This document shows positions 1-33,962 of a DNA stretch of 33,962 bases, in pieces. Source of the stretch: an uncultured Bacteroidia bacterium. Lineage in GTDB: Bacteria > Bacteroidota > Bacteroidia > Bacteroidales > Prolixibacteraceae. The position numbers and the translations under genes are program-made. Position 1 is the stretch's first letter; each line of letters opens with the position of its first letter. The notes under the pieces were generated by a model, which made no database searches, was not told the DNA's origin, and saw nothing but the letters and a program-made list of their open reading frames with translations. The stretch covers positions 1 through 33,962 of the forward strand of contig CAIUUO010000253.1 in assembly GCA_903902325.1 (NCBI GenBank). Reading direction: 5' to 3'.

Positions 1-35
1 ATTTTTAATTTTTAATTTTTAATTTTTAATTTTAT
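1..35. repeat. Tandem array of 7-nt unit ATTTTTA (5 copies)
   Basis: Four exact copies and a fifth near-exact copy of ATTTTTA run from the window edge to within a few bases of the stop codon of the minus-strand lipoprotein gene (stop at 38-40). The array may continue outside the window. It is the first of many short-period arrays located at gene 3' ends here. Confidence 0.85.
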
Positions 36-37
36 TA

Positions 38-856
38 TTACTCCGCTTCGAAAACTGCCAGTGGCGCCATCCTTGCCTTATTCAGCGTCATCCTTGAACC
101 GCTTAGCGAGTAATTGTCCACGGTAGTGAGCACTTCTGCCAGTGCCTGTTCCGTTTTCATATCCGGACAGGCCATCATGGTAGATGCCACACCATTGAAA
201 CGAATCCGCCATCCCTCTTTCAGCTCATAACTTCCAAACATCCTGTTGCATCCGGCATAAGCAGAGAACTTGAATTCTTTGGTCAGCTGGATGAAGGGAT
301 CTTCGGTTTTTTCGGATCCTTTCATCACTTTTTGTCCATGTATTTCGACAAGCCACCATTTCGTTCCAACCAGCGGAATCTCCACCTTTCCGCCAATGGA
401 AGCACTCGCGGTAGCCGGTACTGTTTTTTTCAGCACATACCTGGAAGCCAGATCTCCCTTGATAATGTTCCCAGCCAAATCCAGCTGTATCAACCGGTTC
501 ACACCTACCTGATAGCGGGTTGGCATAGTTCCCGCAGGAATACCTATCAATTCGACCATGCTGCCAGTCTTGTCCCAGACAAACGTCCCGCGCTTGTCAA
601 ATACTTCAATGCTTTTCCCAATATATTTGGTCTGAACCCGGAAAGTTAGATCCTTGTGAATGATCACAACTGTCTCAATCCCGTCGCAGTCTGCACAGGG
701 TACAATCCCAGTATAAACTCCTGCCCAGTCAAGAGAATTCTGACTGTTATGCATATTGGCCGCCTGTTTGGACGCAGTCTTGCAACCACCCACCAGGAAT
801 ACCAACCCTACCGCAGCCGCAAAAATAAAACTTCTAATCAATGCTGATATTCTCAT
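38..856 (-). CDS. NlpE-N / META domain lipoprotein
   Basis: A 272-residue envelope lipoprotein. The start at 856 is preferred over an in-frame ATG 33 nt upstream because it gives a clean signal peptide: basic N-terminus, hydrophobic core and lipobox LVGGC with the lipidated Cys at residue 25. Residues 43-145 resemble the NlpE N-terminal domain, including the CxxC pair at 54-57 (CADC) in the context YTGIVPCADCDGIE. Residues 160-270 are a META/HslJ-type domain with the motif YAGCNRMFGSYEL and a second Cys in MMACPDM. In other bacteria NlpE senses surface and envelope stress and META domains occur in heat-shock or motility-related lipoproteins; the exact role of the fusion is not known. The protein should sit in the outer membrane or periplasm. 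The spacer upstream holds short repeats and no consensus promoter was found. Confidence 0.85.
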   Translation of the reverse strand: MRISALIRSFIFAAAVGLVFLVGGCKTASKQAANMHNSQNSLDWAGVYTGIVPCADCDGIETVVIIHKDLTFRVQTKYIGKSIEVFDKRGTFVWDKTGSMVELIGIPAGTMPTRYQVGVNRLIQLDLAGNIIKGDLASRYVLKKTVPATASASIGGKVEIPLVGTKWWLVEIHGQKVMKGSEKTEDPFIQLTKEFKFSAYAGCNRMFGSYELKEGWRIRFNGVASTMMACPDMKTEQALAEVLTTVDNYSLSGSRMTLNKARMAPLAVFEAE

Positions 857-861
857 GACAT

Positions 862-984
862 TAACTACAAATGACACAAATGGACACAAATAAAACCACT
901 AATTACACAAATGTACACGAAGAATAAGGCTAAAGAATCCTTCGTCCCTTCGACAGGTGAAGGGAAGTCCATGCTCAGGGCAAG
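862..984. repeat. Intergenic repeat patch (ACACAAATGG-type and CTTCGAC...CTCAGGG-type)
   Basis: Positions 862-920 are a degenerate array of ACACAAAT-like units. Positions 947-980 contain CCTTCGAC and, after a short insert, CTCAGGG, a broken version of a repeat found intact at 10528, 31532, 33871 and 33942. No coding potential is seen in this spacer. Confidence 0.6.
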
Positions 985-1062
985 TAAAGTAAGAGGCATC
1001 CATCCGGTATCCCGCAACGTGTAACCTGTAACACGGATCTTGTACTCCGCAAATTTCCATCC

Positions 1063-1386
1063 TCAACCCTTCTTCTTCCCCTTCAGCGAATCGATCATAT
1101 CATCGACCTCGTTGCCAACCCTGGCGCCAAAAGCCTTCACCTTTTCGATGACGCTTTCGGATCGCGCTTCGGCCTGGTCGCGAAATTTTTCCGCCTTGCC
1201 AGGAATATCCTTCTGCTTCAACTCCTCTATTTTTTTCTCCACAGCCTCTCCTGCCTGCTCCATCGCATCCGAGATCTTCGCATAGGCGTCACTCTTTTTT
1301 GCCTTATCGAAAGCCTCCCTGATCCGTTCTTCGGCCTGGTCGGCCAGTTTGCTGGTTTTGTCAAAAAAATCGTCGGCGTTTTTCAT
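1063..1386 (-). CDS. Small charged alpha-helical (coiled-coil) protein
   Basis: A 107-residue hydrophilic protein rich in Ala, Glu, Lys and Asp, without signal peptide or membrane segment. Its heptad-like pattern (e.g. ADQAEERIREAFDKA, AMEQAGEAVEKKIEEL) suggests one long amphipathic helix or helical bundle, similar in composition to YtxH-like or LEA/apolipoprotein-like stress proteins; homology was not established. It ends in a basic tail, GKKKG. The start at 1386 is supported by a good promoter at 1428-1458, which lies inside the longer reading frame that begins at 1467 and so excludes that start. Function unknown. It is the only gene between the lipoprotein and the toxin-antitoxin locus. 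Confidence 0.75.
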   Translation of the reverse strand: MKNADDFFDKTSKLADQAEERIREAFDKAKKSDAYAKISDAMEQAGEAVEKKIEELKQKDIPGKAEKFRDQAEARSESVIEKVKAFGARVGNEVDDMIDSLKGKKKG

Positions 1387-1427
1387 GGTAAATATTTTAA
1401 TTGACTTCTGCAAATTGATGAAAAAAT

Positions 1428-1458
1428 CAAAATTAGTATGTTGCACATATGTTTCAAA
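1428..1458 (-). promoter_or_regulatory. Bacteroidota -33/-7 promoter for the coiled-coil gene
   Basis: On the minus strand TTTG (1458-1455) is followed after 19 nt by TAATTTTG (1435-1428), a full match to the Bacteroidota pattern TTTG-N19-TAnnTTTG. The start codon is about 40 nt further on. Confidence 0.7.
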
Positions 1459-1467
1459 TATAAGCAA

Positions 1468-1821
1468 TAAAAGACTATTGTTGAATGAATTATCTAAAGT
1501 AATTTTGCTCCTGGTTCATGTTTGAACGTGGACAAATGCTCATCTTAACTACAAAGAAACGCATTGACATAAAAAGGATGATACGGACTCAAATACTCGA
1601 AAATAGGTAACGTTTACAGCCAGGCAACTGAAGAGAGCTTTCGAAAAATAAGATCACCTTTCGGCGATTTGGAGAAGAAAATCAATACCTCTATTGAACT
1701 ATATCTGTCCCAGGCCAGGCCTATCCACCCAAAATCCAATGCAAAGTCCTGTTAAAGTATGTAATTCATGCTTGTTAGGGTGCATATTGAGAAACAGTGA
1801 AGCATGTTTAACTCAAATTAT
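1468..1821. other. Gene-less AT-rich spacer with a possible decayed reading frame
   Basis: No intact gene is visible. On the plus strand about 1579-1755 stays open and codes for something protein-like (it includes RSPFGDLEKKIN) but has no convincing start and no recognised family. It may be the remnant of a gene lost next to the decayed toxin. Confidence 0.35.
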
Positions 1822-1860: not shown

Positions 1861-1862
1861 TT

Positions 1863-2204: not shown

Positions 2205-2208
2205 AAAC

Positions 2209-5792: not shown

Positions 5793-5811
5793 CTGAGCAC
5801 ACTCCTCCGAA

Positions 5812-7560: not shown

Positions 7561-7736
7561 CAACACAGAGGAACTGCAGGAGAAGCACAGAGTTACACAG
7601 AGGAATACCCAAATGCTTTAATGGGTTTAAAGGGTCTTAAATTTTTGAAGGGCTTTGCTATTGAACATTTCAAGTTTTTCAAACTTATATTATTTCTCTG
7701 TGTGACTCTGTGCTCCTCTGTGCAACTCTGTGTAAC
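7561..7736. repeat. Inverted pair of CACAGAG-type arrays
   Basis: Positions 7561-7605 contain four CACAGAG-like copies (one degenerate) separated by a few bases; 7694-7736 contain the reverse-complement units CTCTGTG. The two arms flank about 90 nt without coding signs. The arms could pair into one long hairpin. The whole spacer 7341-7851 between two divergent genes has no gene. Confidence 0.75.
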
Positions 7737-7783
7737 TTTTTACAACGAACAAATCTTGCAAATCCGGCATCGAAAGGAATGAC

Positions 7784-9102: not shown

Positions 9103-10379
9103 GTTCATTCAGAAAAATAGCCCCACCGGTTCATTCCGTGGAAAAGATTGATTTTATAGAACCTATACACCAGTTGCTGCCGGGTGGTACCTCATTTTTC
9201 ACCCTTTACGGCGGAACACAGGAGGTGGTCAAACTTGATTTCAGTTTCAAGGCCGGGAACTGGTATGAGCAATCAAAACTGGAAAGCATCATGGCTGCCT
9301 CGATGATCGCGGAAGGCACTTCGGGAAAATCGGCGCGGGAGATTGCCGACCGCATTGATTTCTATGGCGCCCAGTTGAGCACCGTACCCTATTACGACAA
9401 CAACTATGTATCATTACTGGCTTTGAAGAAACACCTGCCCCATCTGCTTCCCCTGCTGGCCGAAATTATGCAGGACGCTTCTTTCCCAGAAAATGAATTT
9501 GAGATAGCCAGACAAAAACGTAAGCAACGTGCCCTTGTGGACGCGGAGAAAGTCGGGCTTGTCGCCCAGCGAAATTTCATGCGGAACCTGATGGGAGAAG
9601 GTCATCCCTATGCCCCGGTTGCTTCACCCGACGCCTACGACGAGGTGACCCTTGAAGGGGCTAAAAGTCACTATATCAGACACTATTGCTCAGCCAATGC
9701 CACCCTTTTCGCTTCCGGAGACGTGGATGGTGATGTCCAAAAATTAATCGTGCAGAATTTCGGAACGAATTGGGGAACTCCTTATCCCTTTAAAAAAGAC
9801 CAGATTCAAGTTGCGAGCTCCGCTGAAAAAAATATCTTCATTGAGCGGGACAATGCCAACCAGAATGCGGTGACGATTGGGAAAAGGGTTCCTACGCAGC
9901 ACCACCCCGACTCGGCCGGACTGAAACTGCTTACCACAATCTTCGGGGGCTACTTCGGCTCACGGCTGATGAGTAACCTGCGGGAAGAGAAAGGACTCAC
10001 CTATGGTATACATGCATCGGTGGTTTCTTTTGTGCGAGATGCTATTTTCATGATCCATGCGGAGGTGACAGCGGAAAAAACGGAAGAGGCAATCCGTGAG
10101 ATTTTCTTTGAAATGAAGCGCCTGCAGGAGGAACTCGTTCCCGAATCAGAACTCGAACCCTTGCGCAGTTTCCTGCTGGGAAGAATGCTGGAAGATTTCG
10201 ACGGACCATTTGCGCGTTCCCAGAGTTTCTCTTCCCTTTACGAAGCAGACTTGGAGGTTGGTTATTTCGACAAAATCATCCATACCATCAAAACCACCAC
10301 CCCCGAGCAAATCCGCGAACTAGCGCGCACCTATTTTGATCCGGAGAGCATGTATATGGTAGCTGCCGGAAAGAAATAA
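9099..10379 (+). CDS. M16-family protein, non-catalytic subunit
   Basis: 426 residues, same fold as its upstream neighbour but without HxxEH: the matching region reads SIMAASMIAEGTSGKSA. It keeps the C-terminal signature of M16 partner subunits, GSRLMSNLREEKGLTYGIHAS, whose Arg/Tyr pair helps to bind substrate in two-subunit M16 proteases. It starts inside the stop codon of the catalytic gene (ATGA overlap at 9099-9102), so a fixed 1:1 ratio is likely. No signal peptide. Intact. The gene ends in TAA directly joined to the repeat element that separates it from the convergent radical SAM gene. Confidence 0.92.
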   Translation: MSSFRKIAPPVHSVEKIDFIEPIHQLLPGGTSFFTLYGGTQEVVKLDFSFKAGNWYEQSKLESIMAASMIAEGTSGKSAREIADRIDFYGAQLSTVPYYDNNYVSLLALKKHLPHLLPLLAEIMQDASFPENEFEIARQKRKQRALVDAEKVGLVAQRNFMRNLMGEGHPYAPVASPDAYDEVTLEGAKSHYIRHYCSANATLFASGDVDGDVQKLIVQNFGTNWGTPYPFKKDQIQVASSAEKNIFIERDNANQNAVTIGKRVPTQHHPDSAGLKLLTTIFGGYFGSRLMSNLREEKGLTYGIHASVVSFVRDAIFMIHAEVTAEKTEEAIREIFFEMKRLQEELVPESELEPLRSFLLGRMLEDFDGPFARSQSFSSLYEADLEVGYFDKIIHTIKTTTPEQIRELARTYFDPESMYMVAAGKK

Positions 10380-10677
10380 TGTGACGATTCGACAATTCGA
10401 TAATTCGACAATTCGACAATTGGGAGTTGTCCGGAAAGTGAATTTTGAGTTTTGACATTGCTCAATACTATAATATTTGTCGTCTCAAACTGACCGTAAT
10501 TATCGAATTGTCGATTAATACGAATCTCCCCTTCGACTTCGCTCAGGGACCAATGATATATTTCATCAAACTCAGGAAGTCACTTCGACTCCGCTCAGTG
10601 ACCCGGTAAATTTTCTCACTTTCTCTTCTTAACAGTTCCCCATTGTCGAATTGCCGAATCGTCGAATTATCACATTA
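10378..10677. repeat. Inverted AATTCGAC arrays filling a convergent junction
   Basis: The left arm (10378-10424) has copies of CGACAATT/CGATAATT at period 8; the right arm (10643-10677) has the same units inverted. Both outer edges read AATGTGA(C/T)(A/G)ATTCGAC and fall on the stop codons of the two convergent genes. A further copy of the unit is at 10503-10515. Inside lie two CTTCGACTYCGCTCAG repeats (10528-10548 and 10581-10602). No gene is inside. Confidence 0.85.
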
Positions 10678-11649: not shown

Positions 11650-11795
11650 TGAAAATTACAAATTAAAAATTACAGATTAATTTAACCACAAAGGCCTCGG
11701 AAAACACGAAGGAACACAAAGGTCTAAATCCAAGAAATAAACATCTTTTTTACTTAGAGTCCTTCGTGCATTACTTAGTGTCCTTTGTGGTAAAT
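11650..11795. repeat. Inverted pair of CACAAAGG-type repeats plus AAATTAC array
   Basis: Positions 11650-11681 are an AAATTAC-like array. Positions 11684-11725 (ACCACAAAGG, CACGAAGG, ACACAAAGG) are inverted at 11754-11793 (CCTTCGTG, CCTTTGTGGT). The arms flank about 30 nt and can form one long stem. This divergent spacer (11612-11920) has no gene besides the promoters. Confidence 0.75.
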
Positions 11796-15689: not shown

Positions 15690-15884
15690 CTAATTCGGCA
15701 ATTCGACAATTCGACGATTGGAAGTTTTTTGATCCCTGAATTAAATGGATGTATACTGACGGCATTGAGAGGAAATTGAACGAACAATATTTTTACTCTG
15801 AGGAGGTTACCGAATTCTATTCATATTACCCGGCTCAAGCCTACCGTTATTGTCGAATTGCCGAATAGTCGAATTGTCACATTT
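15690..15884. repeat. Second pair of inverted AATTCGAC arrays at a convergent junction
   Basis: Left arm 15690-15720 (AATTCGGC, AATTCGAC, AATTCGAC, GATT) and right arm 15849-15884, inverted. The right edge reads AATGTGACAATTCGAC and contains the truA stop codon. The roughly 130 nt between the arms show no similarity to those of the element at 10378-10677, so the interior is not a conserved mobile sequence. Confidence 0.85.
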
Positions 15885-16641
15885 CCACATTTTCCAATTT
15901 TCCAATTGTATCCGGGTAGCCTATATCCACAAGAAACAAGCCCTTGGCGGCGACGCTGGCGCCGGCGCTGCTGCGGTCCTTTTGATCGATCACCTTCCTG
16001 AAATCCTCAATGGTTTTCTTTCCCAATCCAACTTCCAGCAGGGTTCCAACAATGGCCCTAACCATGTTGCGCAGGAAACGGTCGGCCCGGATGGTAAAGA
16101 TGAGGTGATCGCCCATGTCTTCCCAAACTGCCTTGAATATCCTGCAATTGTTGGTCTTAACGTCACTGCCCAATTTGCTGAAACTGGTGAAATCCGTGTA
16201 TTCAAAAAGGGTTTGCGCTGCATCGTTCATCATGGCCAAGTCCAGATCACGGTTTTCCTTGTCGGCATATCTGAACGTAAAAGGATCCTTGTTGCGTGAA
16301 ATGTAATATTTGTATTCCCGGTAGGTGGCGTCAAACCTGGCATGGGCATCCGGCCTGACTTTAAAAATCTTCTGTACCGCGATGTCATTGGGAAGAAGAC
16401 AGTTCAATTTGAAAACTGTTTTTTCATCATCCAGGGAATCCAGGTTACTGTCAAAATGGGCGATGTAAAAAACGGCATGGACGCCAGTATCTGTTCGGCC
16501 GGCCCCTACCACCTCTACAGGTTCACGGCAAATGACGGAAAGAGTCTTTTCAACCTCCTCCTGGACCGAACGGGCATTCTGCTGAACCTGCCAGCCATGA
16601 TAGTTGGTTCCATCGTAAGAAAGCTGAACAAAATACCTCAT
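15877..16641 (-). CDS. truA: tRNA pseudouridine(38-40) synthase
   Basis: 254 residues, normal for TruA. It isomerises uridines 38, 39 and 40 in the anticodon arm of many tRNAs, without cofactor. Start RYFVQLSYDGTNYHGWQVQ is classical. The catalytic Asp51 is in GAGRTDTGVHA, and the second-domain motif RFLRNMVRAIVGTLLEVG is present near the C-terminus. Cytoplasmic. The last codons GAA ATG TGA run into the repeat element, so the terminal Met and stop are supplied by the repeat edge, and the end NVEM may vary between relatives. Promoter proposed at 16661-16688. Confidence 0.97.
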   Translation of the reverse strand: MRYFVQLSYDGTNYHGWQVQQNARSVQEEVEKTLSVICREPVEVVGAGRTDTGVHAVFYIAHFDSNLDSLDDEKTVFKLNCLLPNDIAVQKIFKVRPDAHARFDATYREYKYYISRNKDPFTFRYADKENRDLDLAMMNDAAQTLFEYTDFTSFSKLGSDVKTNNCRIFKAVWEDMGDHLIFTIRADRFLRNMVRAIVGTLLEVGLGKKTIEDFRKVIDQKDRSSAGASVAAKGLFLVDIGYPDTIGKLENVEM

Positions 16642-16688: not shown

Positions 16689-16717
16689 CCACGAATTACA
16701 CCAATTACACGAATTTA
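16687..16717. repeat. Left flank repeat of the GxxExxY gene
   Basis: ACCACGAATTACACC followed by AATTACACGAATTT. It is the reverse complement of the repeat on the other side of the GxxExxY gene (17196-17226); the exact shared core is AATTCGTGTAATTGGTG in that orientation. It lies 19 nt beyond the gene's stop codon. Confidence 0.75.
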
Positions 16718-16735
16718 AGAAGAAATTATTTTGTG

Positions 16736-17122
16736 TCAGAGAATGAATCGTTTGAATTGTAGTGAGGTTTCACCGAAATTGAAAAGGAGACCCATTCGAA
16801 ATTTGGAAGCTTTCAAATAATTGAAAAGTTGAGCTTGGTGTATTTCTGTCAATTCACGGGCGGCTTTCAACTCTAGAACAATCTTACCACAACACACAAA
16901 ATCAGGGGTATGTTCTTTCTTCAGATATTTACCTATATATTGAATCTTCAGTCTCTTCTCCCTTTCAAAACTCAAGGCATTATCGACAAATTCCCTTTCC
17001 AATGCTTCCTGATAGATTGCCTCCTTAAATCCACACCCTAGTTGTTTATGTACATCCATGCAACAGCCAACAATCTGATAGCATTCGTCCCTGTAAATTA
17101 AATCGTCCTCTATTGTTCTCAT
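16736..17122 (-). CDS. GxxExxY family protein (PD-(D/E)XK nuclease fold)
   Basis: 128 residues. The family signature is GFKEAIYQEAL, residues 31-41. A PD-(D/E)XK-type active site is readable: Glu34, Asp74 in TPDFVCCGK and Glu84-Leu-Lys86 in VLELKAAREL, followed by HQAQLFNYLKAS, which matches the usual QLLNYLKA segment. All acidic residues are kept, so a metal-dependent nuclease is plausible, but no activity is established for the family as far as I know. No signal peptide. It stands alone and is bracketed by inverted copies of the ACACGAATT repeat within 20-75 nt on both sides, which suggests a link between gene and repeat (see findings). Intact. Confidence 0.9.
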   Translation of the reverse strand: MRTIEDDLIYRDECYQIVGCCMDVHKQLGCGFKEAIYQEALEREFVDNALSFEREKRLKIQYIGKYLKKEHTPDFVCCGKIVLELKAARELTEIHQAQLFNYLKASKFRMGLLFNFGETSLQFKRFIL

Positions 17123-17195
17123 TGGCAGTCAATTTATTGGTACCTACAAGTTACAGCAAACAAATCAGTTAAACGAAAAAATTCAATTTTTCTTA

Positions 17196-17345
17196 TAATT
17201 TGTGTAATTCGTGTAATTGGTGGTTAGGCCGGGGTTTGTTGTGCCAATTTGTGCTATTTGTGGTTAAGAAAGATTAATTTGGGTTCTTAATTCGTGTAAT
17301 TAGAGTAATTGGTGGTTAGGTCGGGTAATATTTGTGTTTATTTGT
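17196..17345. repeat. Right flank repeat cluster of the GxxExxY gene
   Basis: Three successive degenerate copies: 17196-17226 (TTTGTGTAATTCGTG, TAATTGGTGGTTA), 17229-17267 (TTGTGCCAATTTGTGC, ATTTGTGGTTA) and 17286-17320 (AATTCGTGTAATTAG, AATTGGTGGTTA), followed by a TTTGTGTTTATTTGT remnant. All are in the same orientation, inverted relative to 16687-16717. The 332-nt spacer has no other gene. Confidence 0.75.
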
Positions 17346-18450: not shown

Positions 18451-18570
18451 TAGAGAGATGAGCTATAAGAGATGAGATATGAGATTTAAAAACACAAATC
18501 TTGTCTTCCATAACTTTAGGCAATTTAGGCACTCTAGTCACTTTAGGCACTTCTCGTTAGTGCTTTGATT
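18451..18570. repeat. Two short-period arrays between moxR and the DUF58 gene
   Basis: 18451-18487 is a GAGATGAG-like array joined directly to the moxR stop codon. 18513-18552 is an array of period 9 with unit TTTAGGCAC (TTTAGGCAA, TTTAGGCAC, TAGTCAC, TTTAGGCAC), the same unit as in the batC-batD spacer (23396-23445). Confidence 0.75.
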
Positions 18571-23330: not shown

Positions 23331-23446
23331 GAAAGTGCCTAAAGTATTTAAAGTGCCTAGTGTGCCTAAAGTACTTGGCTACAAATTTAAATAGTGCGTA
23401 ACTTTAGGCACTTTAAATACTTTAGGCATTTTAGGCACTCGATGCC
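23331..23446. repeat. Long hairpin of period-9 arrays between batC and batD
   Basis: Left arm 23333-23377 (GTGCCTAAAGTATTTAAA and further units) and right arm 23396-23445 are inverted copies; about 24 nt match without gap (core TAAAGTATTTAAAGTGCC). The loop is about 20 nt. The left arm begins 3 nt after the batC stop. The unit equals the one at 18513-18552. Confidence 0.85.
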
Positions 23447-23473: not shown

Positions 23474-25279
23474 ATGATCATCAGAAAGATAAGACTCATA
23501 CTCATCGCCCTCCTGTTCGCCCTTCCGGGATGGGCAGCCGAAAAGGTTTCCTTCACCATGGAAGCGCCACAAGTAGTGGAACTTGGGGAACAGTTCAGGC
23601 TTGCTTTTTCAGTCAATGCAAAAGGATCGAACCTCAGGCTTCCTGATCTGAGCGATTTTGATGTACTGATGGGGCCATCCACCTCACAGAGTACATCCTT
23701 CCAGATTATCAACGGGGTCAGTTCCCAGTCGGCTTCATTCTCCTACCTTTACATTTTGCGTGCCAAAAAAGAGGGAAGGTTCAACATCAGTCCGGCAACC
23801 ATCAATGTGGATGGTGTAGATTACAAATCCAATATGCAGTCCATTGAAGTTGTAAAAGGCTCTGCCAAACCTTCCACCGGAGGCGTGGATACGCCCACAT
23901 CAACCCCGGGCACCGTTTCCAGAAATGACCTTTTCGTCAGGATGAACCTCGACAAGCGTTCCTTGTACAAGGGAGAGCATCTGACGGCTACCATCAAGAT
24001 CTATTCAAAAGTCAACCTGAATGGCTTCGAAGACATCTCCATTCCAAATTTCGAAGGTTTCTGGGCGCAGGATATCCAGCTTCCACAGCAAATATCCCTG
24101 CAACGGGAAACCTACAATGGTGAAATTTACAACGTTGGCACCCTGAAGAAAACGTTGCTTTTCCCGCAACAGACCGGCAATATTTCCATCGGATCGGTAA
24201 AAATAGACTGCATCGTTCAGCAGCGGGTCAAAAAATCGCAGAGTATGTTTGACGATTTCTTCGACTCATTCGCCAACGTAAAAGCCACTATCACCAGCGA
24301 CCCTGTTTCCATCAACGTATTGCCTTTGCCCACACCACCCGCTGGTTTTTCGGGTGCGGTAGGCAATTTCAGCATCCACTCCTCCATTACCTCGCGGAAC
24401 GTCAGGGAAAATGATGCCATCACCATCAAATTGGACGTAACAGGAAACGGCAACATCAAGCTGATCAATCCTCCCAAGATATCTTTCCCAGCCGATTTCG
24501 AAGTGTATGATCCAAAGACAAACAGTAATTTCAGCGCTTCCGACCAGGGACTCAACGGCAACATCTCCTTCGAATATCTGTTCCTGCCGCGATTCGCAGG
24601 TACCTATACGATCCCGGCCATCAACTTTGTCTATTTCGACACAGGGACCAAGAAATATGTCTCCAAAACTACCGAGGAGTACCAGATCAAAGTTGAGAAG
24701 GGCGACGGAACGCACAGCAACCAGACCATCAATTCTGTTGCCAAGGAGGATCTCAAGCAGATCGGGACCGATATCCGCTTTATCAAAACGACTCCGGGTA
24801 AACTCTATGCGAAGGGATATACCTTCTTTGGGTCATTTATGTTCTATTTAATCTACCTCGCCGGAGCACTTGTACTGCTTGCCATATATCTGCTCAACCA
24901 ACAACGGATCAAGGAGAATGCCAATGTGGCCAGGATGAAAAATAAAAAAGCGAGTAAGGTAGCCTTGAAAAGACTGAAGGAAGCCAGCGGCCATCTCAAG
25001 ACAGGATCAGACGAGAAATTCTATGAATCCATTGAACGCGCCTTCTGGGGTTACCTGAGCGACAAACTGACCATTGCCGTTTCAGAACTGTCGAGGGAAA
25101 AAGCGACTGACGAGCTGACCAGGCATGCAGTTTCAACGGCCATCATCGAAAGGTTTGTGCAGATTCTCGACACCTGCGAATATGCCAGGTATGCACCGGG
25201 CGGAGGTTCTGCCAAGATGCAGGAACTCTACGATGAAGCAATGGAAGTCATGTCTGTGATGGAAAAAGAGATAAAGTAA
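23474..25279 (+). CDS. batD: BatD, large periplasmic protein with C-terminal membrane anchor
   Basis: 601 residues. Signal peptide 1-21 (LILIALLFALPGWAAEK), beta-rich periplasmic region to about 445 with the BatD motifs FSVNAKGSNLRLPDLSDFDVL, VRMNLDKRSLYKGEHLTATI and GAVGNFSIHSSI, then one membrane segment (about 449-471) and a cytoplasmic helical tail with AFWGYLSDKLTIAVSELSRE. A start at 23474 fits the signal peptide. BatD lacks enzymatic motifs and is thought to be a scaffold of the Bat complex. The spacer to BatC (144 nt) is filled by a long hairpin, so BatD and BatE may be expressed at a different level from the upstream genes. The tail shares features with the membrane protein at 19478. 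Confidence 0.93.
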   Translation: MIIRKIRLILIALLFALPGWAAEKVSFTMEAPQVVELGEQFRLAFSVNAKGSNLRLPDLSDFDVLMGPSTSQSTSFQIINGVSSQSASFSYLYILRAKKEGRFNISPATINVDGVDYKSNMQSIEVVKGSAKPSTGGVDTPTSTPGTVSRNDLFVRMNLDKRSLYKGEHLTATIKIYSKVNLNGFEDISIPNFEGFWAQDIQLPQQISLQRETYNGEIYNVGTLKKTLLFPQQTGNISIGSVKIDCIVQQRVKKSQSMFDDFFDSFANVKATITSDPVSINVLPLPTPPAGFSGAVGNFSIHSSITSRNVRENDAITIKLDVTGNGNIKLINPPKISFPADFEVYDPKTNSNFSASDQGLNGNISFEYLFLPRFAGTYTIPAINFVYFDTGTKKYVSKTTEEYQIKVEKGDGTHSNQTINSVAKEDLKQIGTDIRFIKTTPGKLYAKGYTFFGSFMFYLIYLAGALVLLAIYLLNQQRIKENANVARMKNKKASKVALKRLKEASGHLKTGSDEKFYESIERAFWGYLSDKLTIAVSELSREKATDELTRHAVSTAIIERFVQILDTCEYARYAPGGGSAKMQELYDEAMEVMSVMEKEIK

Positions 25280-25309
25280 TTGACAATGGACAATTGAAAA
25301 TTGACAATT
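25279..25309. repeat. Period-7 array ATTGACA between batD and batE
   Basis: ATTGACA, ATGGACA, ATTGAAA, ATTGACA, ATT: four copies at period 7, starting at the last base of the batD stop codon. The array ends next to the possible ATG at 25310. Confidence 0.85.
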
Positions 25310-26107: not shown

Positions 26108-26282
26108 ACAATTTTCGATTTTCGATTTTCGATTTTGGATTGCATCAAACCATGATGTTGGGTGGAAGTCCAAAAATCAATTGATTGAATTTGGATATCA
26201 TTCCCAAATTTTTAAATCAGGATAATTCACTAATTTTGATGTGAGCGTAATCGAAAATCCAAAATCGAAAATCGAAAATTTA
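26108..26282. repeat. Inverted CGATTTT arrays between batE and the cyclase gene
   Basis: Left arm 26111-26141 (TTTTCGATTTTCGATTTTCG then ATTTTGGATT, period 7) starts just after the batE stop; right arm 26247-26282 is inverted (AATCGAAAATCCAAAATCG and on) and ends at the ATG of the cyclase gene. Between them is about 105 nt with a promoter element. Confidence 0.85.
26231..26238 (+). promoter_or_regulatory. -7 promoter element of the cyclase gene
   Basis: TAATTTTG matches TAnnTTTG, 45 nt before ATG 26283. Transcription would start near 26245, so the right repeat arm would form the 5' leader. Confidence 0.5.
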
Positions 26283-26903
26283 ATGGCACTCTACCTCGAT
26301 CTCACCCAGCCAATCTCTGATGAAATGCCCGTTTACCCCGGGGATGTGCCGGTATCCCTGCAACAGGTCGCCACACTTCAGAAAGATGGCCATTCGAATT
26401 TCGTCCTCTCTACCGGCATGCACGCAGGCACCCACGTGGATGGTCCGATGCATCTGACCTCTTCCCTTACCAGGATCGATGAACTCCCTGTAGGGATGTT
26501 TGCCGGACCCGGATTTTTAGTCAACGCAATAGGGCTTAATGTGATTGATCTTCCCGAAAACACGCTGGATCATCTTTCTCCGGGATCCGTCGTCCTTTTT
26601 TATACGGGTTATGATCAATTCTACGAGCAGGAAACCTATTATCTCACCTATCCAGTCCTAAGCGAAAATACAGCCCTGCTTCTTGTGAAGAAAAAGGCAA
26701 AGATGATCGGGATGGATTTCCCCTCGCCCGATTATGCACCGTTCAAAATCCACGATATCCTGCTCAACAACCATATACTGATTATCGAAAATCTGACTAA
26801 TTTAGCTTCGCTGCTGCCATACAACGAATTTGAACTCCTGGCTTTCCCGCTTAAAATCAAGGCTGATAGTTCGCCGGTACGTGTTGTGGCAAGAATCAGC
26901 TAA
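26283..26903 (+). CDS. Cyclase family hydrolase (kynurenine formamidase-like)
   Basis: 206 residues. ATG 26283 is preferred to an in-frame GTG at 26241, since the first 14 residues of the longer form are encoded by a repeat array and the promoter box ends only 3 nt before that GTG. The signature HAGTHVDGPMH (47-57) is the metal-binding motif HxGTHxDxPxH of the cyclase/KynB superfamily (His47, His51, Asp53, His57), and GMDFPSPD follows in the second half. Members hydrolyse N-formylkynurenine or other amides and lactones with zinc or manganese; the substrate is not determined by sequence alone. There are no kynurenine-pathway neighbours. Cytoplasmic. The stop codon TAA is part of a period-7 array. 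Confidence 0.9.
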   Translation: MALYLDLTQPISDEMPVYPGDVPVSLQQVATLQKDGHSNFVLSTGMHAGTHVDGPMHLTSSLTRIDELPVGMFAGPGFLVNAIGLNVIDLPENTLDHLSPGSVVLFYTGYDQFYEQETYYLTYPVLSENTALLLVKKKAKMIGMDFPSPDYAPFKIHDILLNNHILIIENLTNLASLLPYNEFELLAFPLKIKADSSPVRVVARIS

Positions 26904-26934
26904 ATGCTATTAGCTGTTGGCTTTTAGCTATCAG
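26899..26934. repeat. Period-7 array GCTnnnn overlapping a stop codon
   Basis: GCTAAAT, GCTATTA, GCTGTTG, GCTTTTA, GCTATCA: five units at period 7. The TAA stop of the cyclase gene (26901-26903) lies inside the first unit. Confidence 0.75.
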
Positions 26935-27080: not shown

Positions 27081-27671
27081 TTGAAAGAATCTCCTTTGAC
27101 TTTTTCGGGCCTTTTACGTGCCATGTTCTTATCTTACATAAGGAGTAATACTTTATTTGGTTTATCTCATGGATTTGGTCCCTTATACGCCATATTCATC
27201 TTGCTTTATAGTTTATCGATTACAACGACCTATTTTAATGCAGCAGAAAATGAACTTTACTGGCAGAAAGTGTATTATTCCAGTTTGACTTTTGAGCAGA
27301 TTCAGCAAAAGGTGAAGGAGGCAGACATTTTTGATACTATGAGTATAAACGACAATAAAATCACTGGAGATCTAAAGCTTTTGGATTTTGATTGCAAGGT
27401 CATAGGATATAATCGCACCCCTTTGTACATGAAAGTATACAAAAATACGGGGTTTGTAATGATCAATTCTCAAAAAGGGAAATATACGGTCACCTGTAGT
27501 AAGATGATATTAGTCAATAAGGACAAAAATATTTTTGCGAATTTTGATGAGCATATAAATCTCGAGAAGTACGCACTAGAAAAAGGGACCAATCATATTA
27601 GAAAGTCTTTCGAAGAGACTTCGGGTAAAGTTCTCAATTATACATTTACGAATATGTTTTCATTTCATTAG
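27081..27671 (+). CDS. Unrecognised protein with N-terminal membrane segment
   Basis: 196 residues from TTG 27081; ATG 27123 (182 residues) is an equally good start. I do not recognise the family. One hydrophobic stretch (LSHGFGPLYAIFILLYSLSI, about residues 29-48) could anchor the protein in the membrane, with a mainly beta, Lys-rich globular part outside (for example YMKVYKNTGFVMINSQKGKY and VTCSKMILVNKDKN). No catalytic motif, lipobox or repeat. Base composition is clearly more AT-rich than that of its neighbours, which hints at a different history. A weak TAATCTTT box is at 27062-27069, one base off the -7 pattern, and would favour the ATG at 27123. It ends 22 nt before the GH2 gene and may be cotranscribed with it. 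Confidence 0.6.
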   Translation: MKESPLTFSGLLRAMFLSYIRSNTLFGLSHGFGPLYAIFILLYSLSITTTYFNAAENELYWQKVYYSSLTFEQIQQKVKEADIFDTMSINDNKITGDLKLLDFDCKVIGYNRTPLYMKVYKNTGFVMINSQKGKYTVTCSKMILVNKDKNIFANFDEHINLEKYALEKGTNHIRKSFEETSGKVLNYTFTNMFSFH

Positions 27672-27693: not shown

Positions 27694-29508
27694 ATGAAAA
27701 ATTTAAAATTAATTTTCTTCCTGTCTGCCTTGTTTTATACCGGCACAGTTTACAGCCAGGCTTGGAAACCCGCCGGTGACCTGATCAAAACCAAATGGGC
27801 CGAACAGGTCAATCCCCAAAATCCACTTCCAGAATATCCCCGTCCGATCCTGGTAAGGAGTGAATGGCAAAACCTCAACGGATTATGGGACTATACAATT
27901 CTTTCCAAAGGGGCAGGGCTGCCCTCAAAATTTGCCGGGAAAATCCTTGTGCCCTTTGCCGTCGAGTCGAGTCTTTCAGGTGTCCAGAAGAAAGTAGGCC
28001 AGGCAAATGAACTTTGGTACCAGCGGACTTTCCAGGTACCTGCTGCCTGGAAAAACAGGAAGGTACTGCTCAACTTTGGCGCCGTAGACTGGAAGGCAGA
28101 TGTATGGATCAACGACATAAAGGTAGGAAGCCATCAGGGTGGCTACACTGCCTTCACTTTCGACATAACTCCCTATTTAGCCAAAGATGCCCAGAAACTG
28201 ACAGTCAGGGTCTGGGATCCGGCCGACAAGGGATTTCAACCCCGAGGGAAACAAGTAGAAGATCCAAGGGGAATCTGGTATACCTCAGTAACAGGTATCT
28301 GGCAGACTGTATGGATTGAAGCAGTCAATGAAAACTTCATTTCTTCGGTAAAATCGATTCCCGACATCGACAGTAAAACGCTTGCTGTAACCGCGATGCC
28401 TGCGGAAAAGAAACCCGGCGATATCATCGAGGTGAAAGTACTTGACCAGGGGAAGGTTGTTGGTACAGGAAAATCGGCAGCAGGAGAAGAAGCCCTTGTT
28501 AGCCTCAGTGATATAAAGCTATGGAGTCCCGAAACGCCTTTCCTCTATGATCTTGAGATTTCGCTTACCAGGAATGGCAAACAACTGGACCTGGTGAAAA
28601 GCTATGCAGGCATGCGCAAGATTTCCACAAAGAGGGATGCCGGAGGTATCATCAGGCTGGAACTCAACAATCACGACTACTTCCAGTTTGGACCGCTCGA
28701 CCAGGGTTGGTGGCCGGATGGATTATACACCGCTCCTACAGATGCTGCACTGGCCTTCGACATCAAAAAGACGAAGGACTTTGGATTCAACCTGATCCGC
28801 AAGCATGTGAAGGTCGAGCCTGCAAGATGGTACTATCATTGCGACAAGGAGGGAATCCTGGTCTGGCAGGATATGCCCAGCGGGGATGTGAGTCCGCAGT
28901 GGCAGCAACGCAACTATTTCAACGGCAAGGAACTGGAAAGAAGCCAGGAATCGGAGGAGAATTACCGGGCAGAATGGAAGGCGATCATCGACCAGCACCT
29001 CTCCAATCCGTGCGTGGTAACCTGGGTGCCATTTAATGAGGCATGGGGCCAGTTTAAGACGCCGGAGATCGCTGCCTGGATCAAACAATACGATCCCTCC
29101 AGGCTGGTCAACAGCGCCAGCGGAGGCAATTTCTATCCTGTCGGCGACATGATGGACATCCACAACTACCCTGCACCCGACCTGGCGATGTACGACGGCA
29201 AGAGAGCCTGCGTGCTGGGCGAATACGGAGGAATTGGCCTGCCTGTCGAAAACCACCTCTGGGTGAAGGACAAAAACTGGGGATATGTTCAATACAAAAC
29301 TTCTGAAGATGCCACCAATGCCTATATAGAACTGGCCGAAAAACTGAAATCTTTGATACCGCGCGGATTTTCAGCAGCTATCTATACCCAGACCACCGAT
29401 GTTGAGATGGAAGTAAACGGATTGATGACCTACGACAGGAAGGTAATCAAGATGGATGAATCCCGTATAAGGAAGATCAATTTGGAGGTATGTAATTCCC
29501 TCAAATAA
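27694..29508 (+). CDS. Secreted glycoside hydrolase family 2 enzyme
   Basis: 604 residues, shorter than most GH2 enzymes (usually 700-1000), because there are no extra C-terminal domains. Signal peptide 1-22 (KLIFFLSALFYTGTVYSQA). Then sugar-binding jelly-roll domain (50-210, with GVQKKVGQANELWYQRTF and WINDIKVGSHQGGYTAFTFDI), immunoglobulin-like domain (215-308) and a (beta/alpha)8 barrel from about 320 (FGFNLIRKHVKVEPARWYY). The acid/base is probably Glu449 in WVPFNEAWGQ and the nucleophile Glu510 in VLGEYGGIG. GH2 includes beta-galactosidases, beta-glucuronidases and beta-mannosidases; sequence alone does not settle which. No SusC/SusD genes are near, so it is not part of a visible polysaccharide-utilisation locus. 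Periplasmic or outer-membrane associated. Confidence 0.93.
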   Translation: MKNLKLIFFLSALFYTGTVYSQAWKPAGDLIKTKWAEQVNPQNPLPEYPRPILVRSEWQNLNGLWDYTILSKGAGLPSKFAGKILVPFAVESSLSGVQKKVGQANELWYQRTFQVPAAWKNRKVLLNFGAVDWKADVWINDIKVGSHQGGYTAFTFDITPYLAKDAQKLTVRVWDPADKGFQPRGKQVEDPRGIWYTSVTGIWQTVWIEAVNENFISSVKSIPDIDSKTLAVTAMPAEKKPGDIIEVKVLDQGKVVGTGKSAAGEEALVSLSDIKLWSPETPFLYDLEISLTRNGKQLDLVKSYAGMRKISTKRDAGGIIRLELNNHDYFQFGPLDQGWWPDGLYTAPTDAALAFDIKKTKDFGFNLIRKHVKVEPARWYYHCDKEGILVWQDMPSGDVSPQWQQRNYFNGKELERSQESEENYRAEWKAIIDQHLSNPCVVTWVPFNEAWGQFKTPEIAAWIKQYDPSRLVNSASGGNFYPVGDMMDIHNYPAPDLAMYDGKRACVLGEYGGIGLPVENHLWVKDKNWGYVQYKTSEDATNAYIELAEKLKSLIPRGFSAAIYTQTTDVEMEVNGLMTYDRKVIKMDESRIRKINLEVCNSLK

Positions 29509-29539
29509 AAGGATAAAGGATAAAGGCAAAAGGATAAAG
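29506..29539. repeat. Period-7 array AAGGATA at the GH2 stop codon
   Basis: AAGGATA, AAGGATA, AAGGCAA, AAGGATA, AAG starting right after the stop TAA (29506-29508). The same unit occurs next to both ends of tex (31508-31561 and 33722-33758). Confidence 0.8.
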
Positions 29540-29771
29540 TTAAGAACGCCACAATCATGATTTTCTCATAATAAAGACTAAAGTGGCATTTGTTTGGAAA
29601 TGAATATTTGGACGCACCAACAGTAATTTATGATAATTATAACCTCTTTAACCACGAAGTCATTGGATGTTTTGGACAATTCAAAGGATAATGTTCCAAG
29701 CTCACAGAATTTATTTTATAGGTAAATTAAAAAGATTGACTTTTAAGTAGTTAAAACTTAAAATTAAAATT
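29540..29771. other. AT-rich spacer before the two-component genes
   Basis: About 230 nt between the GH2 array and the lytS-type gene. No gene, no TAnnTTTG box. It contains a lone AACCACGAAGTCATTGG stretch resembling the repeats near 16687. Confidence 0.45.
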
Positions 29772-30809
29772 ATGAAAAAGTCAATGGAAGTCCTTGTTAA
29801 CCTAATTCTCTGGACAAAAATTATTTTTCTCCTCTCTTACTATGTTTTAACCCATCTGGAAATGGGTGTTTATAATGGGCAGCATGGTCCTTGGGGGCTT
29901 CCCTGGTTTCCTATGCTAATAATCGGTTCACTAATTGGGCCTTTTATCAACTTTTATCTCTTCTATTTAATCTTTATTCCCAAGTTGTTTGTAATGCGAA
30001 AATACTCGCTTTTTGCTCTCCTTGCCTTAATTTCTAGTTTCTTAACAGGATATACCTTCAGACTCACATGGGGTGGATACAACGAGAATCATATGTTTGG
30101 GGTTTTATTGTTCTGGACTGTCATGGCGCTCTTTTGTGGTATACTGGGTGGAGCCATGAAAGGCTTTTTCCTGTGGATTGAAGCGGTATACGACAGAAGA
30201 ATTTACGAAAAAAAGCATCTTCAAAGCAGAAATGCCCTTTTGCTGCTGCAAGCCCAGCTTAATCCCCATTTTCTGTTTAATTCGCTTAACAATATTGATG
30301 TACTGATTGAAGAAACCCCCAAAATAGCGTCTGAATATTTAAAGAAACTATCCGATATTCTTCGGTATGTTCTTTATGAGACCAAAGAGGAAGAAACTGA
30401 TTTGTCCAAAGAGATTGCTCAAATAGGCAGTTACATAGATCTTCAAAAAATACGTTCCAGTAATCTTAACTATGTCAGGTTAAATCTGACCGGTGCATTA
30501 AAAAATCAGAAAATTGCACCCATGATTTTCATTCCCTTCATTGAAAATGCATTTAAACATTCCAAGAATAAGACAATTGACCATGCCATTGATATACAAT
30601 TTGATATCAGGGGAAATTCAGTGAAAATGATTTGCAAAAACTACTATGAACCAACTCAATTGGAAGTGGTAAAAAATGAAGGATTAGGCAATGAAACGAT
30701 GAAACAAAGATTAAATTTGCTTTATCCGAAAAAGCATGAATTAATTATCAATCAATCGGAACACTGGTTTACTGTATCACTAACCATTCATTTGAAAGAT
30801 GGAAATTAA
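29772..30809 (+). CDS. LytS/YehU-type sensor histidine kinase
   Basis: 345 residues. Four membrane segments in the first 140 residues (about 10-27, 46-70, 78-96, 108-136), no large periplasmic domain. The kinase core is the His_kinase (PF06580) type: the phosphoacceptor is His166 in LLLLQAQLNPHFLFNSLNN, followed by LRYVLYETKEE and a degenerate GHKL ATPase domain with MIFIPFIENAFKHSK (the N-box) and GLGNETMKQRLNLLY (G-box). It senses an unknown, probably membrane-related, signal and phosphorylates the LytTR regulator encoded next. The genes overlap by 11 nt (30799-30809), so they are cotranslated. Intact. Confidence 0.95.
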   Translation: MKKSMEVLVNLILWTKIIFLLSYYVLTHLEMGVYNGQHGPWGLPWFPMLIIGSLIGPFINFYLFYLIFIPKLFVMRKYSLFALLALISSFLTGYTFRLTWGGYNENHMFGVLLFWTVMALFCGILGGAMKGFFLWIEAVYDRRIYEKKHLQSRNALLLLQAQLNPHFLFNSLNNIDVLIEETPKIASEYLKKLSDILRYVLYETKEEETDLSKEIAQIGSYIDLQKIRSSNLNYVRLNLTGALKNQKIAPMIFIPFIENAFKHSKNKTIDHAIDIQFDIRGNSVKMICKNYYEPTQLEVVKNEGLGNETMKQRLNLLYPKKHELIINQSEHWFTVSLTIHLKDGN

Positions 30810-31482
30810 ATGCATCATTATTGAGGATGAGCCTTTGGCCATGAAACGAACCAAAGAATTTGCCGGTCAGGTTTCCTACCTCAATTTGGTTGCCACTTTT
30901 CAGAATGCTATTGAAGCCATTGGATTTTTGAAAGAGCATTCCATTGATTTAATTTTTCTGGATATCGAAATGGATGGACTTACAGGGATTGAGTTGATAG
31001 AATCACTTTCGTGCATTCCTGAAATAATTATCACAACTGCCTACGACAAATATGCGCTGAAAGGCTTCGAACTGCATGTAACAGACTATCTGTTAAAACC
31101 ATTTCGTTTCGATAGGTTTCTAAATGCGGTGGAGCGGGTCCACAACAATCTGGACAAGGAGAAAAAGGAGGAAAAGAACTTTATCTTCGTGAAAACAGAA
31201 TACCGGTTGGAACGGATTGCGTTGAACGAAATCTGTTTTATAGAAGGAATGGGTGATTACAGGAATGTTCAAACAAGTTCCAAAAAAATCATGACACTTA
31301 AAACATTCTCTGATTTTGAGGTTGAGTTGCCGATTAATAGTTTCTGCAGGGTCCACAAATCCTACATCGTTTCACTTGACAAAATCATTTCCATTGAACA
31401 CAACCGGATCAAAATAAAGGATGCGCTTATCCCCATCAGCGACACCTACAAGGAACAGTTTTTCAAAATGATTGGGTTGTAA
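30799..31482 (+). CDS. LytTR-family response regulator
   Basis: 227 residues. Receiver domain (1-118): acidic pair Glu9-Asp10 in IIIEDEPLA, phosphoacceptor Asp55 in LIFLDIEMDG, Thr in IITTAYD and Lys in DYLLKPF. LytTR DNA-binding domain (130-227) with IFVKTEYRLERI, ICFIEGMGDYRNVQ and FCRVHKSYIVSLDKI, the usual LytTR signature. It overlaps the sensor kinase gene by 11 nt and is its cognate regulator. In Bacteroidota such pairs often control nearby genes; the GH2 gene just upstream on the same strand is a candidate target, but no binding-site repeat was found. Cytoplasmic. Confidence 0.95.
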   Translation: MEIKCIIIEDEPLAMKRTKEFAGQVSYLNLVATFQNAIEAIGFLKEHSIDLIFLDIEMDGLTGIELIESLSCIPEIIITTAYDKYALKGFELHVTDYLLKPFRFDRFLNAVERVHNNLDKEKKEEKNFIFVKTEYRLERIALNEICFIEGMGDYRNVQTSSKKIMTLKTFSDFEVELPINSFCRVHKSYIVSLDKIISIEHNRIKIKDALIPISDTYKEQFFKMIGL

Positions 31483-31507
31483 CCAAACTTGATTTCGCAC
31501 ATATCCC

Positions 31508-31561
31508 CCTTTATCCTTTAGCCTTTACTTGCCCTGAGCTTGTCGAAGGGTCCTTTATCCT
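31508..31561. repeat. AAGGATA arrays around a CCCTGAGC..GTCGAAGGG repeat
   Basis: CTTTATC, CTTTAGC, CTTTACT, then CCCTGAGCTTGTCGAAGGG (31532-31550), then CCTTTATCCTTC. It fills the junction between the convergent lytTR and tex genes and includes the tex stop codon (31555-31557). Termination function is possible but not shown. Confidence 0.75.
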
Positions 31562-33693: not shown

Positions 33694-33698
33694 GAGTA

Positions 33699-33706
33699 CA
33701 AAGTTA
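33699..33706 (-). promoter_or_regulatory. -7 promoter element of tex
   Basis: Minus-strand TAACTTTG matches TAnnTTTG and ends 5 nt before the start codon (33693), so the mRNA should be leaderless or nearly so. Confidence 0.5.
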
Positions 33707-33721
33707 GAAGAAACACCGGAA

Positions 33722-33758
33722 AAGTAAAGGAAAAAGGATAAAGGCTAAAGGAAAAAGT
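33722..33758. repeat. Period-7 AAGGATA-type array upstream of tex
   Basis: AAAGTAAAGGAAAAAGGATA followed by AAGGCTA, AAGGAAA. Same unit family as at 29506 and 31508; tex therefore has it on both sides. Confidence 0.75.
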
Positions 33759-33870
33759 TAGGAAACAGTTCAATCAGGATTTCACAGCAACATGCAATTT
33801 TCGACACCCACATTCATCCATCAGTCTCTCAATTGTAGGGTTAGTTTGACTCGATTCCATTTCTATCGTT

Positions 33871-33962
33871 CCTTCGGCTTCGCTCAGGGATTTTCAACTA
33901 TCCACATTTTCACATGGTCGATTTACTCTTCGACTCCTTAACCCCTTCGGCTTCGCTCAGGG
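33871..33962. repeat. Two CCTTCGGCTTCGCTCAGGG repeats at the window end
   Basis: Copies at 33871-33889 and 33942-33962 (the second runs to the window edge). Related copies at 947-980, 10528-10548, 10581-10602 and, inverted, 31532-31550. The ends CCCT and AGGG are complementary. No gene is seen in 33760-33962. Confidence 0.8.

Follow-up and report, generated by a model that had tools for sequence, protein, structure and literature searches.

What kind of sequence are the short-period tandem arrays that recur in the spacers of a bacterial contig, and why do they so often lie where a gene ends? This question is raised by contig CAIUUO010000253.1 of an uncultured Bacteroidia bacterium (Prolixibacteraceae), which was analysed at its full length of 33,962 nucleotides (nt; hereafter, the window), and in which a previous inspection of the letters alone (hereafter, the sequence-only reading) had noticed clean arrays with a period of 7–9 nt at the 3′ ends of genes. 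The analysis of these arrays revealed that many of them form the two inverted arms of intergenic elements dispersed in the window genome (G000; the genomes compared with it are referred to as G001 to G007 and G013), and that such arms also enclose small genes encoding either an IVP/S23 protein (PF05635) or a GxxExxY protein (PF13366), an association that was observed in five phyla. It is fairly probable, in our opinion, that the arrays belong to dispersed array-armed elements, whose rarer full copies carry an IVP or GxxExxY gene encoding a protein that acts on its own unit.

The existence of clean short-period arrays in the spacers of the window was borne out. Tandem Repeats Finder called them at the places named by the sequence-only reading, and they are visible in the printed spacers too; the GCTnnnn run (26906–26932) falls below the score of the program and is visible to the eye. 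In a sample of 745 kb of the window genome (40 stretches plus the window), 201 arrays with a period of 6–14 nt were found in 370 spacers of at least 30 nt, versus 4, 5 and 2 in three dinucleotide shuffles; hence, head-to-tail units of 7–10 nt exceed chance, as in simple sequence repeats (SSRs) and in short tandemly repeated repetitive sequences (STRRs), the latter being short-period intergenic arrays of cyanobacteria. The analysis of array placement in the same sample was carried out on 213 arrays lying in 137 of 516 spacers. In 50 kb of Escherichia coli K-12, one array and no pair were found. Contigs C1, C237 and C253 (the window) start within arrays, which, for this reason, probably break the assembly.

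The arrays of the sample are paired. An inverted partner lies within 400 nt of 77 of the 213 arrays and a direct partner of 11, about 8.5 being expected for each, and 55 distinct inverted pairs were recognised, with a median loop of 41 nt. The window contains the pairs 7563/7737, 10383/10668, 15692/15878, 16690/17222, 23332/23439 and 26111/26279, and two others (11684/11789 and 29508/31527) can be traced by eye; among the looser arrays with longer periods listed by the sequence-only reading, those at 7561, 11684, 16687 and 17196 turned out to be parts of such pairs, while no partner was found for the one at 862. Of the pairs, 53 could be attributed to a family, and in 48 of these the unit shows its usual left-side orientation; a 5′ arm rich in purines, on average, is seen in 44 of the 55 pairs. 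Two inverted arms, a variable loop, an intergenic position and a high copy number are the layout of RAYT-REPIN systems, in which repetitive extragenic palindromes (REPs) are expected as inverted flanks of the RAYT genes.

The pair 16690–17222 (arm score 27.5; Tandem Repeats Finder) is the one bearing a small gene: between the left arm, (CACGAATTA)n at 16690–16715, and the right arm, (TAATTCGTG)n at 17196–17222, the gene of a GxxExxY protein of 128 amino acids (PF13366 PDDEXK_3, 129 bits) is located on the minus strand at 16736–17122, and among the syntenic stretches of the congeners its ortholog was found only in G004. Five of the other pairs have no open reading frame (ORF) in their loop. Two of them share the unit AATTCGAC and lie between convergent stops: the first (10383–10668) has arms at 10383–10421 and 10642–10668 and stops at 10379 and 10670, and the second (15692–15878) has arms at 15692–15719 and 15849–15878 and stops at 15684 and 15877. 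The element at 23332–23439, of about 108 bp, belongs to the AAGTGCCTA/TTTAGGCAC family, whereas the pairs at 26111–26279 and 7563–7737 have the units ATTTTCG and (T)ACACAGAGG/CTCTGTGCAA, respectively. The pair with units ACACAAAGG/CCTTTGTG (11684–11789), also ORF-less, occupies a divergent spacer that is 150–152 nt long and array-free in G006, G007, G002 and G005. In the last pair (29508–31527), the AAAGGAT left arm (29508–29539) and the CCTTTAT right arm (31508–31527 and on) enclose two genes, which encode a LytS-type histidine kinase and a LytTR regulator (29772–31482; Pfam-supported). The arrangement of this pair suggested that arms might be the ends of general gene cassettes; this candidate was rejected, since left–right arms across genes (3) show no excess over right–left ones (8).

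The sequence-only reading had assigned to each array a unit of its own and had regarded this variety as unlike a transposable repeat. The first statement was not confirmed, since a 16-mer of AATTCGAC has 69 + 59 exact matches (128) in the genome, versus 0 for the backward control, and the AATTCGAC and TTTAGGCAC units each recur inside the window; the second is contradicted by the many multi-copy families, by the inverted two-arm architecture and by the existence of ORF-bearing members. When a query containing the element 23332–23439 was used, the matches listed were 80 in G001, 65 in G003, 81 in G004 and 22 in G005, most of which correspond to the element or to one arm; the matches listed in G006 (6), G007 (7) and G002 (4) are mainly genes. 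The loop of the AAGTGCCTA family copies appears, by eye, to be partly common, whereas loops of different families, and those within most of the other families, are unrelated.

Since the GxxExxY gene of the window and two IVP genes of the window genome, flanked by AATTCGAC or TAATGTGC arms, sat between arms, loci of both families were analysed, a score of at least 15 being taken as the threshold for inverted flanks. Such flanks were found at 25 of the 27 testable IVP loci (out of 30) of a set composed of loci of the genus, of G013, of one planctomycete and of one acidobacterium, and at 22 of the 28 testable GxxExxY loci (out of 30). All six testable genes of the planctomycete and acidobacterial genomes have arms, and so do the five testable IVP/GxxExxY genes of G013, though no array exists in its 40 kb sample. 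The control genes, which were not purged of IVP and GxxExxY genes, pass in 7 of 204 cases in the 745 kb sample and in 0 of 26 in G013. When 14 control genomes were searched for IVP, none of them gave a match. A second IVP set comprised 30 of the best-scoring loci from 118 genomes drawn from the phylum of the window, in 90 of which PF05635 was matched; here 3 of 46 neighbouring genes pass. In all the sets, the two flanks of a gene match each other better than flanks with swapped partners (p = 4e-15 for GxxExxY, 5e-16 for the IVP genus set and 7e-13 for the IVP phylum set), and, at IVP and GxxExxY loci, they also score higher in the inverted than in the direct orientation. Where an array is present, the best period of the flanks is 7 or 8 in 42 of 52 cases in the IVP genus set, 7 or 8 in 21 of 34 and 14 in 9 of 34 in the IVP phylum set, and 8–10 in 33 of 36 for GxxExxY. 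Protein identity and arm similarity are correlated also between non-orthologous loci (rho = 0.31 for 42 IVP and 0.34 for 25 GxxExxY loci, pairs that include one overlapping duplicate, L293/L298), a value that none of 500 permutations reached.

The genes are also linked to the arrays of their own genomes. The four strong IVP/GxxExxY matches of the 745 kb sample all have arms (scores 16–28), and three weak ones (E from 3e-4 to 5e-3) are without arms or lie at an edge. Thirteen gene-bearing elements, out of 24 genome matches, were tested for units in common with the arrays of the sample, and 12 of them share their unit with 1–26 other arrays; the unit of the GxxExxY element of the window is common to no other sample array. 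Over nine genomes, the number of IVP and GxxExxY copies follows array density (rho = 0.72, p = 0.03). Furthermore, 14 of 16 plasmid IVP genes (15 from Cyanobacteriota and 1 from Gemmatimonadota; 16 of 29 records) have inverted flanks (p = 6e-10 versus swapped flanks), and heptamers surround the IVP genes on the cyanobacterial plasmids. IVP genes of these plasmids (L392, 889–1257; L395, 901–1260; L398, 889–1245; L387, 895–1263) are located inside CRISPR operons (cas6-cas4; cas10-cmr3) and in the interval that separates a pair of ribonucleotide reductase genes.

The same spacers can exist with or without the element. The synteny between the window and the congeners is good, and the comparison was carried out on 56 spacers of the window genome. 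An array-bearing spacer corresponds to an array-bearing ortholog in 12 of 22 cases in G001, 15 of 18 in G003, 8 of 19 in G006, 8 of 18 in G007, 1 of 2 in G005 and 2 of 2 in G004, and in none of 8 in G002 and none of 6 in G013, both of which are array-poor; array-free spacers of at least 60 nt have an array-bearing ortholog in 1 of 7 (G001), 1 of 3 (G003), 1 of 6 (G006) and 1 of 3 (G007) cases. The sequence-only reading had reasoned that the link to gene 3′ ends would fail if these spacers lacked arrays in close relatives with no trace, and on this point the picture is mixed (G002 0/8 and G013 0/6 versus G003 15/18). The similarity of units at shared sites is 0.48 on average versus 0.29 at random, and just 7 of 46 pairs lie above the 95% limit of the null; arrays thus recur at orthologous sites, with the site outlasting the unit. 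The convergent spacer 10380–10669, for example, is reduced to 2 nt in G007 and to 33 array-free nt in G002, and contains other inverted units in G001 and G005, while the element 23332–23439 is missing from the orthologous 28-nt spacer of G007. The spacer preceding the tex gene contains, in G001, G003 and G006, AAAGGAT pairs with differing loops, enclosing by eye about 60–110 nt, and measures 5 nt in G007; in the window, it is here that arms of the same kind (29508–31527) flank the two LytS/LytR-like genes.

The three IVP genes of contig C234 of the window genome, compared across the congeners (whose arms were read by eye), illustrate the same variability. At site 3, arms and IVP gene are present in G000 and G006, gene-less pairs, mostly with other units, in G003, G004 and two G005 loci, and neither arms nor gene in the 27-nt spacer of G007, while G002 is array-free. 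At site 2, G000 has AATTCGAC arms and the IVP gene, and G003, G004, G006 and G007 have gene-less pairs with other units, which resemble each other in G006 and G007. Lastly, at site 1, the IVP gene is present in G000 and G004, a gene-less pair in G006 and a terminator-like palindrome alone in G003 and G007. The two IVP elements of site 1 (G000:C234:720–1300 and G004:C5:5424–6004) have opposite orientations, which corresponds either to an inversion or to independent insertions. Inverted termini together with empty sites in relatives are what is observed in miniature inverted-repeat transposable elements (MITEs) and non-autonomous insertion sequences.

As to the position of the arrays, the proposed link to gene 3′ ends was confirmed in the 745 kb sample. 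When each array was re-placed at random inside its own spacer in 2000 rounds, 31.3 ± 4.2 boundaries with a stop codon within 10 nt were expected and 86 were observed (0/2000 re-placements), whereas starts within 10 nt show no excess (29 versus 24.7; 280/2000); gene starts derive from a home-made codon model, so that distances to them are rough. Within 5 nt of a stop, 74 boundaries lie where 19.8 are expected, and in tandem spacers leaving more than 100 nt before the next start the array is at most 5 nt from the stop in 11 of 32 cases (0.9 expected). In 119 loci from other genomes, with rough gene calls, 29 stops and 28 starts lie within 5 nt (13 expected for each), and 75 stops (53.5 expected) and 55 starts (52.9 expected) within 30 nt, a distance at which stops alone are enriched. 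Because starts are there as enriched as stops at 5 nt, a strong 3′ preference is demonstrated for the window genome only, and a purely 3′ placement in other genomes was dropped. Arrays can even run into coding sequence: the Tex protein of the window (31555) ends inside an array and exceeds by three residues that of the five congeners compared, and the end of TruA (15877–15907), both in the window and in G001, is made of array sequence.

Inverted arrays are not restricted to the Bacteroidota. In GTDB genomes, an exact 24-mer of the CACGAATTA unit was found in 119 stretches at least (several stretches derive from one genome), many of them metagenome bins, whose record titles mention Bacteroidetes, Planctomycetota, Acidobacteria, Cloacimonadota, Calditrichota, Chloroflexi (including Herpetosiphon), Ignavibacteria, Deltaproteobacteria, Armatimonadota, Aminicenantes, Lentisphaeria, Verrucomicrobia and KSB1. 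In these stretches, 110 of 199 CACGAATTA family arrays have an inverted partner and 65 a direct one, and among the inverted arrays 104 have CACGAATTA on the left side and 5 on the right side, over 62 loci, i.e., with one polarity across phyla. Of the 326 arrays of other families in these loci, which had played no part in the choice of the loci, 117 have an inverted and 32 a direct partner. The 24-mer is sporadic, being present in 1 of 296 genomes of the window's phylum and not in the window genome, and CACGAATTA was thus rejected as a common unit of the phylum. At two acidobacterial loci (L129 and L161, RPQK), the palindrome extends, by eye, about 16–20 nt past the array into locus-specific sequence.

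How might such elements work? According to the explanation that we prefer, each of them consists of an arm, a loop and an inverted arm, an arm being formed by about 3–5 or more copies of a 7–10 nt unit. Most copies have a short non-coding loop, and a minority one small loop gene, encoding either an IVP/S23 four-helix-bundle protein, with arms mostly of period 7–8, or a GxxExxY protein, PD-(D/E)XK-like, with arms mostly of period 8–10. Since arms and gene tend to be co-inherited, the gene-bearing copies may represent full elements, whose protein would act on its own unit as RAYT does on its REPs, and gene-less pairs would move, or be copied, in trans. The position at gene 3′ ends would stem from the tolerance of compact spacers towards insertion beside a stop codon, with the leader of the next gene preserved. 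The data show the architecture, the dispersal, the linkage to the two genes, the match of each arm to its own partner and the presence or absence at orthologous sites, whereas we infer the mobility of the elements as wholes, the role of the protein as mobiliser and the movement of gene-less copies in trans from the parallel with RAYT, from the empty sites and from the correlation between proteins and arms.

The comparison with known systems suggests, as the best reading, that these elements work as RAYT-REPIN or 23S rRNA intervening sequences (IVSs) do, while belonging to neither. With RAYT (TnpA-REP) and REPINs they share a small protein gene in inverted repeats, many gene-less two-arm intergenic copies with variable loops and several families per genome; unlike them, they have no cognate Y1/HUH transposase gene lying between copies of their repeat, as judged from 30 Y1 loci, and their arms are 7–10 nt tandem arrays, whereas REPs are GC-rich palindromes. 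The 23S rRNA IVSs with an S23/IVP ORF are described as selfish, have complementary ends and replace small tetraloops with extended stem-loops (PMC4990558), and IVP is likewise recorded in rRNA insertions of bacteria of the Candidate Phyla Radiation (PMC11270868). The IVP-bearing subset resembles them in having this ORF in the loop, as well as complementary termini able to form a stem (here by sequence complementarity only), while the window copy carries GxxExxY instead. Unlike IVSs, the elements lie between protein genes (in the window and at the C234 sites) and not in an rRNA gene, no Rfam match being found in the window, and they have arms made of tandem arrays of differing units, a majority of gene-less copies and a GxxExxY variant. 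MITEs and non-autonomous insertion sequences are also short and dispersed, with inverted ends and empty sites in relatives; here, in turn, the arms are arrays, no target duplication is established and no matching transposase was identified, only Y1 having been searched. DNA uptake sequences are 9–12 nt motifs that form inverted pairs at 3′ ends, with one motif per genome and a single copy per arm, unlike the many tandem units described here. The TAACTGA heptamer arrays of Beggiatoaceae, Cyanobacteria and Bacteroidetes (PMC4679880) are likewise short-period, intergenic and found in the same phyla, and differ, as far as the accessible part of that source goes, in being direct repeats with no linked gene family, most of those of Beggiatoaceae lying upstream of a start.

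In the main rival explanation, the arms are landing pads, i.e., inverted pairs arise alone, by slippage or short-homology copying, and mobile IVP/GxxExxY genes home into them, in the way in which intervening sequences occupy hairpin loops of the 23S rRNA. This would agree with the excess of gene-less pairs (55 versus 4 strong gene matches in 745 kb), with the lack of clear gene remnants in their loops and with the presence of different units, with or without a gene, in the same spacer of different species. Nevertheless, it is unlikely, given that protein and arm types correlate at unrelated loci, that in G013 arms flank these genes in spite of its array-free sample, and that empty sites are devoid of arms as well. 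Slippage as the sole origin, the arrays being ordinary heptamer SSRs or cyanobacterial STRRs, fits the period of 7–9 nt and the occurrence of heptamer arrays in Cyanobacteria, Beggiatoaceae and Bacteroidetes (PMC4679880), but yields no inverted partners and does not account for the same complex unit at many loci and phyla; together with the linkage to two gene families, the pairing makes it very improbable as sole cause, although changes in the number of units within an arm may well be due to slippage.

A further possibility is that of selected hairpins in the 3′ untranslated region (UTR), the arms of which would pair in RNA and protect or terminate transcripts, while the unit drifts freely. 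The peak of arrays at stop codons, the array presence that outlasts the unit at orthologous sites and the site at which two congeners have a terminator-like palindrome in place of arrays would all be accommodated. A run of five T, however, follows the right arm in 5 of the 55 pairs and the corresponding A run is found in 3, i.e., there is no U-tract asymmetry; arms as intrinsic terminators were thus rejected, and for the 3′-UTR function put forward by the sequence-only reading the part concerning termination receives no support from flank composition. Moreover, partner arms do not co-vary within families, several congeners are array-free at a site and the association with IVP/GxxExxY is left unexplained, so that we consider these hairpins improbable. 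Lastly, the arrays might be REPINs, which have the same two-arm, variable-loop, intergenic layout, of the Y1/RAYT transposases, matches of which were found in 9 of the 9 genomes searched. At 30 Y1/RAYT loci, used as a positive control, inverted flanks were found in 20 and periodic ones in none: the test thus recovers a known partnership of gene and repeat, and the arrays are not the repeats of the Y1 genes tested, around which different inverted repeats, devoid of periodicity, are found. RAYT was therefore rejected as the mobiliser, and this last explanation is hardly credible.

Several observations weigh against the preferred explanation, i.e., that of array-armed elements with a protein acting on its own unit. 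Five of the 53 pairs are reversed (2 of 4 in the CACAAAGG family, 2 of 6 in CGCAAAG and 1 of 6 in AAAGG), so that a strict polarity in every family was rejected, polarity being mixed in CACAAAGG and CGCAAAG, to which four of them belong. The two arms of a pair resemble each other no more than they do further arms of their family (Wilcoxon p = 0.07), on which ground a recent local inverted duplication was discarded. No evident common loop sequence exists outside the AAGTGCCTA family and no clear IVP/GxxExxY remnant in gene-less loops, so that the status of deletion derivatives is not established, and the candidate of gene-less pairs as decayed gene-bearing ones was rejected. Different species often have different units at one and the same orthologous site, and no target duplication is established, one 4-nt overlap in an A-rich context having been observed. 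The inverted flanks are present in only 13 of the 30 loci of the IVP phylum set, and the neighbouring genes of the genus set pass in 12 of 111 cases, more than the 7 of 204 of the sample. The correlation between proteins and arms is modest, several pairs of proteins 60–78% identical having unrelated arms. Finally, GxxExxY was found in 0 of the 80 (of 119) cross-phylum CACGAATTA array loci examined for it, so that the idea of a GxxExxY gene accompanying each CACGAATTA array was rejected; IVP was found in 1 of 119.

The window harbors other arms and repeats. Single arms on the plus strand have the units AAAGGAA (33726–33757) and AATTGAC (25278–25309, overlapping the stop codon at 25279), and an ATTTTTA array (1–33, plus strand) lies at the contig edge. 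Directly past the stop at 26903, the GCTATTA arm (26906–26932, plus strand) is found, a unit that also follows the corresponding stop in G006 and G007. The arm with unit ACTTTAGGC (18513–18552, plus strand) is located beside a GAGATAT/TTATGAG array (18453–18485), and both families recur in the orthologous spacers of G001 and G003. In the window genome, AAAGGAT-like and TGTAACC-like arrays recur as a composite, 22–31 nt apart (C50:31867/31918, C123:19131/19178, C123:22460/22515, C202:24402/24462 and C204:21123/21216). REP-like palindromes CCCTTCGACTTCGCTCAGGG/CCCTGAGCTTGTCGAAGGG are present at 10529–10548, 10581–10600, 31532–31550, 33871–33889 and 33944–33962, the one near 31532 falling inside an array. 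An ORF of 196 amino acids (27081–27671) has no Pfam match and no tblastn match in the syntenic stretches of the congeners.

On the whole, the data point to an unrecognised kind of bacterial mobile DNA; a link between such arrays and IVP or GxxExxY was not found in the literature searched, most subscription journals being outside that search. A broader proposal, to which we would assign a little less than an even chance, is that IVP/S23 and GxxExxY serve, as enzymes or as accessory factors, a pan-bacterial class of mobile elements with tandem-array ends, in which each protein lineage would read its own 7–10 nt unit, insert beside stop codons or hairpins and spawn gene-less copies, the heptamer repeats of cyanobacteria and other phyla and the rRNA IVSs being two faces of one class. 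If the interpretation is correct, it would provide a cause for the short-period intergenic arrays long noted in many phyla, and would assign PF05635 and PF13366, two common families of unknown role, to one kind of element. It would also open a route to the mechanism, i.e., the recognition of a unit by a protein of about 120 residues, and would bear on assembly breaks and on the altered ends of core proteins such as Tex.

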